This document shows positions 22,831-25,227 of a DNA stretch of 38,947 bases, one piece after another. The DNA lies in contig JAPKAF010000008.1 of the NCBI GenBank assembly GCA_028825365.1, positions 1 through 38,947 on the forward strand, in the 5' to 3' direction. The notes below the pieces were generated by a model. The model was not told where the DNA came from and did not search any database. It was given only the letters and a program-made list of their open reading frames with translations. Each line of letters starts with the position of its first letter. Positions within the stretch are counted from its first letter, which is position 1. The translations under genes were made by a program, and so were the position numbers. The DNA is from Flavobacteriaceae bacterium. GTDB lineage: Bacteria > Bacteroidota > Bacteroidia > Flavobacteriales > Flavobacteriaceae.

Positions 22831-22838
22831 TAACTTTG
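22831..22838 (+). promoter_or_regulatory. Likely -7 promoter element of the zapA operon
   Basis: TAACTTTG matches TAnnTTTG and ends 25 bases before the first ATG, predicting a leader under 20 bases. The upstream half of the gap holds an imperfect inverted repeat (ACTTCTT ... AAGAAGT). No clear -33 TTG is seen. Confidence 0.45.
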
Positions 22839-22863: not shown

Positions 22864-23154
22864 ATGCAAGATTTAGATAATATAGTTGAATCATTAGAAA
22901 AGAACATTAGAAGATCTTTAGATAAGATATCAAACCTTCAGATTAAGAACAATGAACTTCAAGATGAATTAGCATTACTTAAAAATCAAGATGCTGCAAA
23001 ATCTAATTTAATTGATTTATGTGAAGAAAAATATAAATCACTTAAAATTGCTAATACTATTTCAGGTAGTAATAATAGTACAAAAGATACAAAACTAGAA
23101 ATAAATTCATTGATTAGAGAAATTGATTATTGCATATCTCAGTTAACGGAATAA
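22864..23154 (+). CDS. Coiled-coil protein upstream of zapA
   Basis: A 96-residue, hydrophilic protein dominated by heptad-like repeats in its first 60 residues (IVESLEKNIRRSLDKISNLQIKNNELQDELALL), so a dimeric coiled coil is expected. The tail contains a Ser/Asn-rich linker and a second helix ending in REIDYCISQLTE. There is no signal peptide or membrane segment. It sits 13 bases before zapA and is almost certainly co-transcribed. I do not recognise a named family. By size, coiled-coil nature and context it resembles ZapB-like divisome proteins, but direct sequence kinship cannot be claimed. Confidence 0.8.
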   Translation: MQDLDNIVESLEKNIRRSLDKISNLQIKNNELQDELALLKNQDAAKSNLIDLCEEKYKSLKIANTISGSNNSTKDTKLEINSLIREIDYCISQLTE

Positions 23155-23167
23155 ACTTAGTTTCTAA

Positions 23168-23455
23168 ATGGAAAAGTTAAAAATAAAATTATCTATTGCT
23201 AATAGAATTTATCCACTTACTATAGATCCTTCTCAAGAGGAAGGTCTAAGGAAAGCTGCGTTAGACATTAACAATATGATAAAACAATTAGAACAAAGTT
23301 ACTCAGTTAATGATAAGCAAGATGTTTTAGCTATGTGTGCTTTACAATTTGCATCAAAAACGAAACAAAGGTCAATTGACAATAGTAATTCAAATAAATC
23401 TTTTGAAATAAAATTAAAAGAGTTGAATGAATTAATTAGTGAGACTATTTCTTGA
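23168..23455 (+). CDS. zapA: Cell division protein ZapA
   Basis: ZapA binds FtsZ polymers and helps bundle them in the Z-ring. The 95-residue length fits. The N-terminal domain shows the family pattern KLKIKLSIANRIYPLTIDPSQEEGLRKAALDINNMI, and the helical tail contains DKQDVLAMCALQFA, the dimer and tetramer-forming coiled coil. It follows the coiled-coil gene by 13 bases and is followed by the 6S-like RNA and ribonuclease Y gene, an order that echoes the zapA-ssrS neighbourhood of enterobacteria. Confidence 0.92.
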   Translation: MEKLKIKLSIANRIYPLTIDPSQEEGLRKAALDINNMIKQLEQSYSVNDKQDVLAMCALQFASKTKQRSIDNSNSNKSFEIKLKELNELISETIS

Positions 23456-23469
23456 TTTTTTATAATATT

Positions 23470-23637
23470 AAAACTACCTACTTTAGTTTTTTTGATAAAC
23501 TCAACGCTTATTCTTTTAAAAAAGGTGAGTTTAAGTTGTAAAATTGTGCTGACTAGATCAGATCTTTGATCAACTTATTAGCCTTAAACTTGATTTAAAG
23601 GAGTTTATACAAAACCATAGCTATTGTAGGTATTTTT
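23470..23637 (+). ncRNA. ssrS: 6S-like regulatory RNA (Flavobacteriia type)
   Basis: The roughly 170-base gap between zapA and rny folds into a long interrupted hairpin, the hallmark of 6S RNA, which mimics an open promoter and sequesters RNA polymerase. Pairings that I can read are TACCTAC (23475-23481) with GTAGGTA (23626-23632), ATAAACTC (23495-23502) with GAGTTTAT (23601-23608), AGTTTAAG (23528-23535) with CTTAAACT (23583-23590), GCTGA (23548-23552) with TTAGC (23578-23582), and a terminal stem GATCA/TGATC with a six-base loop. An asymmetric bubble of about 25 bases on the 5' side separates the second and third helices. A U-rich run follows the outer stem. A 6S family specific to Flavobacteriia is known and lies in this context. 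Exact ends are approximate. Confidence 0.78.
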
Positions 23638-23655
23638 ATTTAATAATTAAACGTT

Positions 23656-25227
23656 ATGGAATTTACAACAACAACGATAATATTTTTAATTTGTGGGATC
23701 TTAGTAGGTTTTGTAATTGCGAAAATATTTGAAAAATCTAATGCAACTAAAATAATAAAAGATGCAAATTCAGAAGCTTCAATTATTTTAAAATCTGCTA
23801 ATCAAGAAGGTGAGTCTTTGAAAAAAGATAAAATGTTACAGGCAAAAGAAAGATTTATTGAACTTAAATCAGAACATGAGAAAGTAATATATTCAAGAGA
23901 AGATAAAATGAAGTCTCTAGAACGTATGGTTAATGAAAAAGATGCTAAAGCATCAAAATTATTAAAAACTCAATCTGATATAAATTTAGATCTAGAGTCA
24001 AAATCTAATGATTTTGATAAAAAACTAGCTAGCCTTGATAAGAAAAAAAGTGAGTTAGATAAAAATAGAATTAATCAAATAAAACAATTAGAAGTTATTT
24101 CTGGTCTTTCTGAAGAAGATGCTAAAGAACAGCTTCTAGGTTCTTTAAAAGAGGAAGCTAAAACTGATGCGATGAAATTCATTCAAGACAGAATGGAGGA
24201 AGCTAAAATGACTGTAGAACAAGATGCTAAAAAAATTATTATTAACACGATTCAAAGAATAGGTACTGAAGAATCGATTGATAATTGTGTCTCTGTTTTT
24301 AATATTGAATCTGATGATGTTAAAGGAAGAATTATAGGTAGAGAAGGAAGAAACATTAGAGCATTAGAAGCTGCAACTGGTGTTGAAATTATTGTTGATG
24401 ATACTCCTGAAGCAATCATATTGTCTTGTTTTGATTCTATTAGAAGAGAAATCGCAAGATTATCACTTCATAAACTTGTTACTGATGGTAGAATACATCC
24501 TGCAAGAATTGAAGAAATAGTAAAGAAAACAGAAAAACAAATTGACCAAGAAATTATTGAAATTGGCAAAAGAACTGTTATTGATTTAGGGATTCATGGC
24601 TTGCACCCTGAATTAATTAAAGTGGTAGGAAGAATGAAATACAGATCATCTTACGGTCAAAACTTATTGCAGCACTCCAGGGAAGTATCCAAGCTTTGTG
24701 GCATTATGGCGGCAGAGCTCGGCATTGATGCGAAATTAGCCAAAAGAGCTGGTTTACTGCATGATATAGGTAAAGTTCCATCTTCTGAAAAAGACGCTGA
24801 AACTCCACATGCAATACTAGGAATGCAGTGGGCAGAAAAATTTGGAGAGAAAGAAGAAGTTTGTAATGCGATTGGAGCTCACCACGATGAAATTGAAATG
24901 AAATTCTTATTATCACCAGTAGTTCAAGTTTGTGATGCTATTTCAGGAGCTAGACCTGGTGCAAGAAGACAGGTTTTAGATTCCTACATTGAAAGGTTAA
25001 AAAACTTAGAAGAAATTGCGCTTGATTATAATGGTGTTCAAAAAGCTTATGCCATACAAGCAGGAAGAGAACTTCGTGTTATAGTTGAAAGTGAGAAAGT
25101 AAATGATGAAGTTGCTTCCAAATTATCTTTTGATATTTCTCAAAAGATTCAAACAGATATGACATATCCTGGACAGGTAAAAGTGACTGTTATTAGAGAA
25201 ACTAGAGCGGTTAACATTGCTAAATAA
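23656..25227 (+). CDS. rny: Ribonuclease Y
   Basis: RNase Y is a membrane-anchored endoribonuclease that starts mRNA decay. The 523-residue protein shows every expected part: an N-terminal membrane helix (residues 7-24), a long charged coiled coil (about 30-200), a KH domain with [15 protein letters not shown] at 224-238, and an HD domain with the metal-binding His369-Asp370 in LLHDIGK and further ligands in GAHHDE. The tail [18 protein letters not shown] is conserved. It follows the 6S-like RNA directly, so a processed read-through transcript is possible. It converges with the xerD-like gene. Confidence 0.97.

Follow-up and report, generated by a model that had tools for sequence, protein, structure and literature searches.

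The zapA-rny gap holds a 6S-Flavo RNA gene

The window (the whole 38,947-nt stretch of DNA that was analysed) corresponds to contig 11 in a genome of 1.43 Mb and 72.6% completeness whose closest named relatives, judged by RNase Y, belong to the Flavobacteriaceae, for example, Gaetbulibacter, Psychroserpens, and Winogradskyella. In this window, a gene for a 96-aa coiled-coil protein, zapA, and rny, which encodes RNase Y, follow one another on the forward strand, and a 6S RNA lies inside the 200-nt gap between zapA and rny (Table 1). 6S RNA is a small RNA thought to shut down RNA polymerase by imitating an open promoter; in general, it forms a rod of about 160 to 200 nt with a closing stem, a central bubble, and an apical arm and is usually present in one copy per genome. 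The same traits are found here, in a 164-nt RNA with an outer stem (P1 and P2), a bubble of 19 and 15 nt on its two sides, and an apical arm (P3 to P6), encoded once in the window genome.

A preliminary description of this DNA, made from the sequence alone, had placed a 6S-type RNA between zapA and rny, and ZapA and RNase Y Pfam matches confirm both neighbours. When the entire window was compared with Rfam using cmscan, the sole match was to the 6S-Flavo family (RF01685), over the full length of the model (positions 1 to 108 of 108), with 105.6 bits against a gathering score of 85 (E = 7.7e-18). Of the two covariance models that the description had proposed, only this one matched: the generic 6S model RF00013 gave nothing in the window even at an E value of 10. 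The RNA is therefore 6S-Flavo specifically, and a 6S function is compatible with the RF00013 result because Rfam keeps 6S-Flavo as a separate family. A model of the entire rod (R1, 168 positions) matched the window RNA, which is part of its training set, over positions 1 to 168 with 154.5 bits (E = 6.3e-34), and the modelled RNA agrees well with the extent first proposed. The fold of the complete gap (23456 to 23655; −41.3 kcal/mol, z = −3.43) and that of the RNA itself (z = −3.96) were each better than those of 200 out of 200 dinucleotide shuffles.

Work by Wehner in 2014 is said to have predicted product RNAs in Bacteroidetes. Weinberg (2010) counted 6S-Flavo among RNAs that fulfil the role of a validated class (PMC2864571), 6S RNA and its product RNAs have been seen in Bacteroides thetaiotaomicron (PMC7366714), and Flavobacterium psychrophilum expresses a 6S RNA, which is listed as a known, detected RNA (PMC9723704). 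Thus, the gap contains a bona fide 6S-Flavo RNA gene that, as a gene, is ordinary and expected; what goes beyond the known is its extended family, its operon setting, a boxA-like site in relatives, and a partial imitation of the −7 promoter box.

Table 1. Positions of the genes, RNA elements, and promoter-like sites in the window
Feature	Positions	Strand	Remarks
−7 box TAACTTTG of the likely operon promoter	22831..22838	+	Upstream of the first gene; only TAnnTTTG in 22501-23700
Gene for ZapB-like 96-aa coiled-coil protein	22864..23154	+	16 of 17 homologues match ZapB (PF06005)
zapA	23168..23455	+	PF05164, E 6.3e-19
Degenerate boxA counterpart ACTATTTCTTGATTTT	23446..23461	+	Overlaps zapA stop codon; at least 3 core mismatches, as read from the sequence
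Complete 6S RNA rod, P1 to U-tract, 164 nt	23474..23637	+	R1 covariance match; z −3.96
P1 5' strand (outer closing stem)	23475..23487	+	Pairs with 23620-23632; 9/13 pairs changed on both sides in 36 relatives
P2 5' strand TTTTG.TAAACTC	23490..23502	+	Pairs with 23601-23614; 4/12 pairs changed on both sides, 96.3% of cells paired
Rfam 6S-Flavo core	23499..23606	+	RF01685 covariance match, 105.6 bits
Central bubble, 5' side, 19 nt	23503..23521	+	Unpaired between P2 and P3
P3 5' strand AAGGU	23522..23526	+	Pairs with 23581-23585 GCCUU; 100% of cells paired, 4/5 pairs changed on both sides
P4 5' strand	23533..23538	+	Pairs with 23571-23576; 98.1% of cells paired, 5/6 pairs changed on both sides
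P5	23542-23544/23565-23567	+	Among the supported inner helices
P6 apical hairpin	23549..23561 (23549-23552/23558-23561)	+	96.5% of cells paired, 3/4 pairs changed on both sides
−7-box-like element TAAACTTG	23585..23592	+	T belongs to the final P3 pair; A is the bubble's first base
Central bubble, 3' side, 15 nt	23586..23600	+	Unpaired between P3 and P2
P2 3' strand	23601..23614	+	Partner of 23490-23502
P1 3' strand	23620..23632	+	Partner of 23475-23487, same covariation count
U-tract directly after P1	23633..23637	+	Likely 3' end/intrinsic terminator; T-run conserved
rny (RNase Y)	23656..25227	+	PF12072 (RNase_Y_N), E 4.1e-33; HD and KH domains

Covariation defines a rod with an asymmetric bubble

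RF01685 was searched for in 60 relatives and 14 control genomes; 45 of the relatives and none of the controls have a match with an E value of 0.001 or better. Unguided RNAalifold on 37 relatives with flanks yielded a rod of 36 pairs, 23 of them with two-sided changes. The named 43-pair rod was then counted on 36 trimmed relatives, with shuffles and partners slid by 1 to 3 columns as controls: 94.9% of cells are paired (86.4% in shuffles and 31 to 48% with slid partners), 25 pairs show two-sided changes (13.5 in shuffles), and so do 148 cells (36.8 in shuffles). The RNA thus forms a rod with an outer stem of P1 and P2, an asymmetric central bubble, and an apical arm of P3 to P6. Both checks set out in the preliminary description, a covariance-model match and compensatory changes among relatives, came out in favour of the 6S call.

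Two of the helices first read from the sequence withstood this comparison: the outer TACCTAC/GTAGGTA corresponds to P1 and the middle ATAAACTC/GAGTTTAT to P2, and the bubble described as one-sided is real and asymmetric. The other two did not. The inner pairing AGTTTAAG/CTTAAACT (74.3% of cells paired), which would mask the promoter-like box described below, and the apical GATCA/TGATC (66.1%) are no better paired than shuffles and show no compensatory excess; both were rejected, and P3 to P6 take their place. A release helix formed by bubble collapse in the style of Bacillus subtilis was also rejected (73.1% of cells are paired, without any excess relative to shuffles, and slid versions do equally well). 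Finally, P1 covaries strongly and is absent from the 108-nt Rfam model, and the U-tract that follows it has at least 4 T in 69 of 69 aligned loci and at least 5 T in 67.

Related RNAs extend across the Bacteroidia

Compared with Rfam 6S-Flavo (PMC2864571), the RNA is alike in its core fold and its full-length match above the gathering score but adds the covarying P1 and the U-tract; in other families and orders, related RNAs score below the Rfam threshold. Among genomes of the same order without an RF01685 match, 11 have a recognisable rny. Ten of these carry an R1 match ahead of it, with E values no higher than 3.1e-6, and the remaining one has a zapA-rny gap of just about 40 nt. In the whole class, R1 matched 28 of 197 genomes, and a broader model built from 69 sequences (R2) matched 118 of 296, with exactly one match in 117; these counts include the training sequences, and the weight rests on the nontraining matches. 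The R1 class loci that were fetched are all immediately in front of rny, and a single one lacks a detected zapA upstream. R2 matched before rny in 11 of 29 class rny loci, many of the others being short gaps without a match. The position before rny is common, but not universal, in the class.

In many Bacteroidia (L199 to L224), the zapA-rny gap is short and lacks a 6S match. Some of these genomes have their R2 match elsewhere (G070, with rny on contig 31 and the match on contig 27; G089, contigs 1 and 12, respectively; and G091, where the two are about 66 kb apart); therefore, the RNA moved to or from the gap, or was lost, more than once. Two R2 matches occur in just one class genome, G102, which has one between zapA and rny and one elsewhere (contigs 37 and 93), the second possibly being a 6S paralogue or contamination.

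The operon setting and a boxA-like site upstream of the RNA

The order zapA, 6S, rny holds in 45 of 45 RF01685 matches. The coiled-coil protein upstream is best described as ZapB-like: ZapB (PF06005) is the family that most of its homologues match (16 of 17, best E = 4.4e-6), and the window protein itself matches with an E value of 0.0041, below the Pfam cutoff and of a kind to which coiled coils are prone by chance. Of 153 loci, 149 have a TAnnTTTG box in the 120 nt that precede the coiled-coil gene. The operon promoter has the form TTG-N20-TAnnTTTG in 101 of 138 relatives, with N19 in another 16 (117 together), TAnnTTTG having been required when these relatives were collected and the spacing left free. 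This promoter is the only clear sigma-A promoter for the set of coiled-coil gene, zapA, 6S, and rny, which, to judge from the sequence, probably form an operon. A sigma-A promoter directly before the 6S RNA was considered and rejected, TAnnTTTG being found in just 15 of 153 zapA-rny gaps (and in 3 of 153 in either control stretch).

The zapA-side position had been likened to that of ssrS in enterobacteria, and the parallel is borne out: in beta- and gammaproteobacteria, the gene order ZapB, ZapA, 6S (ssrS) is known, with ssrS also directly after zapA (PMC7641849), and therefore the two phyla may share the arrangement. Like gammaproteobacterial 6S RNA, the RNA here is a rod with a closing stem, a central bubble, and an apical arm; unlike ssrS, it does not match RF00013, it is followed by rny rather than fau/EVE, and its bubble box resembles the −7 box of Bacteroidota.

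In relatives, a boxA-like site precedes the RNA. The core, GTTC[TA]TT or more broadly G[TC]TC[AT]TT, is found in the 80 nt preceding P1 in 59 of 79 loci, whereas dinucleotide shuffles give 2.35 ± 1.4 and the 140 nt further upstream give 5 of 79. The loci are related and do not amount to 59 independent events, but they spread well beyond the order. The consensus is about ACGTTCTTTAAAATAAA and contains GTTCTTTAAAA, which is identical to the boxA of the Legionella pneumophila Lens CRISPR array (PMC7862264), and it agrees with the 16S-leader boxA of the same genomes (GTTC[AT]TT, for example, GTTCTTTGAAAATATTG and GTTCATTAACATATTG). In Bacteroidia loci (L002 to L164), GTTC[TA]TT[AG]A stands anywhere between 12 and 72 nt away from P1; GTTCTTT was rejected as a promoter element on this ground, and the variation fits boxA better. 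Unlike boxA before 16S rRNA and CRISPR arrays, however, the site before 6S is degenerate in the genus of the window, yet a 16S leader there keeps GTTCATTTAAAATATTG; a functional boxA in the window genome itself is doubtful because of this degeneracy. A 23S search in this genus found nothing.

Taken as a whole, and with confidence somewhat short of even, the arrangement suggests that, in much of the Bacteroidia, 6S RNA may lack a sigma-A promoter of its own and may come from a zapB-like/zapA/6S/rny transcript with a boxA antitermination site before the RNA; this would tie 6S levels to the Nus-factor machinery of rRNA and to RNase Y expression, with the ZapB(-like)-ZapA-6S order shared with beta- and gammaproteobacteria. 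The literature search, with most subscription papers outside its scope, found no paper joining 6S RNA, zapA, and rny and none joining boxA, 6S RNA, and antitermination.

A partial −7 box at the duplex edge of the bubble

In Escherichia coli 6S RNA, a −10-like region lies in the 3' strand of the central bubble (PMC8876501), and this strand is therefore the place to seek a −7 mimic. The −7 box of F. psychrophilum is given as TAnnTTTG at −12 to −5 (PMC9723704). The preliminary description had pointed to this box as one to compare with the bubble, and the idea holds in part. For it, the 3' strand carries TAAACTTG, which has five of the six fixed positions and begins at the duplex/bubble edge at the end of P3; its register fits TAnnTTTG best among 17 around the bubble (mean, 3.61 of 6; next best, 2.97; 69 rows). 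A-11, C-8, and T-6 are invariant in 36 close relatives, with G-5 in 33, and in 69 diverse rows A-11 is kept in 65, T-6 in 64, C-8 in 56, and G-5 in 45. Against it stand the near-constant C at −8, a position held by T in promoters, and the variability of −7 across the class. The resemblance is thus partial. In the apical arm, where 6S RNAs in general have a −35-like region, a UUG conserved in the family precedes the box by 16 nt; locus promoters use TTG-N19/20, and a −33 TTG mimic is unsupported by this spacing, although spacing is perhaps not decisive for an RNA duplex. In several Flavobacteriaceae loci (L112, L139, and L140 to L143), the −7-like box is changed (TATGATTT, TATAAATG, and AAAACTTG).

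The same letters could instead act in the DNA, as an rny promoter embedded in the 6S gene, with no mimicry by the RNA. The resemblance of TAAACTTG to TAnnTTTG, the TTG upstream of it, and a start that would then fall some 59 nt ahead of the rny ATG speak for this reading, but the TTG spacing of 16 departs from the N19/20 of 117 of 138 locus promoters, the T at −8 is replaced by C in 56 of 69 rows, and the first position of the box is the end of a covarying helix. A DNA promoter is accordingly judged improbable.

Proposed mechanism and remaining alternatives

Very probably, the locus is best explained as the gene of a 6S-Flavo rod that would be made from an operon transcript, act as an open-promoter mimic for RNA polymerase with the main sigma factor, and give rise to product RNAs. 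On the model of the 6S RNAs of E. coli and B. subtilis, it would bind this polymerase as a look-alike of an open promoter, the end of P3 serving as the upstream duplex of the mimicked promoter and the 3' bubble strand as its nontemplate strand, in which TAAACTTG would substitute for the TAnnTTTG −7 box. The 5' bubble strand (AACGCTTATTCTTTTAAAA) is the putative template of the product RNAs, again by analogy (PMC8876501); short RNAs would start on it, perhaps opposite the U residues around 23511-23512, run into ...GUUGAGUUU, and release the 6S RNA. The bubble, the arms, and the expected release by product RNAs are features in common with B. subtilis 6S-1 RNA (PMC8876501), whose bubble-collapse helix, in contrast, lacks covariation support here. 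The promoter at 22831 probably drives cotranscription of the ZapB-like gene, zapA, and the 6S RNA, and the transcript would end at the P1 hairpin and U-tract, just before rny.

Its closeness to rny raises the alternative that the element is a cis-acting leader or attenuator, for example, in autoregulation of RNase Y, rather than a free 6S RNA. The U-tract stops just 18 nt short of the rny ATG, rny comes next in all 45 RF01685 loci checked, and few gaps (15 of 153) have their own TAnnTTTG, so that rny transcription probably reads through. Nevertheless, the fold matches a 6S family above threshold, the F. psychrophilum 6S RNA is listed as a known, detected RNA (PMC9723704), and the R2 matches in G070, G089, and G091 lie apart from rny, which makes the RNA there independent of that gene; a leader is very unlikely. 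An intrinsic terminator with incidental extra pairing, as the terminator-like P1 and U-tract of 69 of 69 aligned loci might suggest, is already contradicted by compensatory changes across P3, P4, and P6, far from the terminator, and has a negligible likelihood.

Implications

The longer model detects 6S RNAs below the Rfam threshold in many Bacteroidia families. For the 6S-Flavo rod as a promoter mimic, the box offers a testable proposal for how 6S RNA could imitate promoters in a phylum with a different −7 box, namely, by keeping A-11, T-6, and G-5 at the duplex edge, and the RNAs with altered boxes are natural variants for this idea. The boxA-like site and the operon placement, in turn, suggest an unexpected link among rRNA-type antitermination, cell division, RNA decay, and 6S synthesis.
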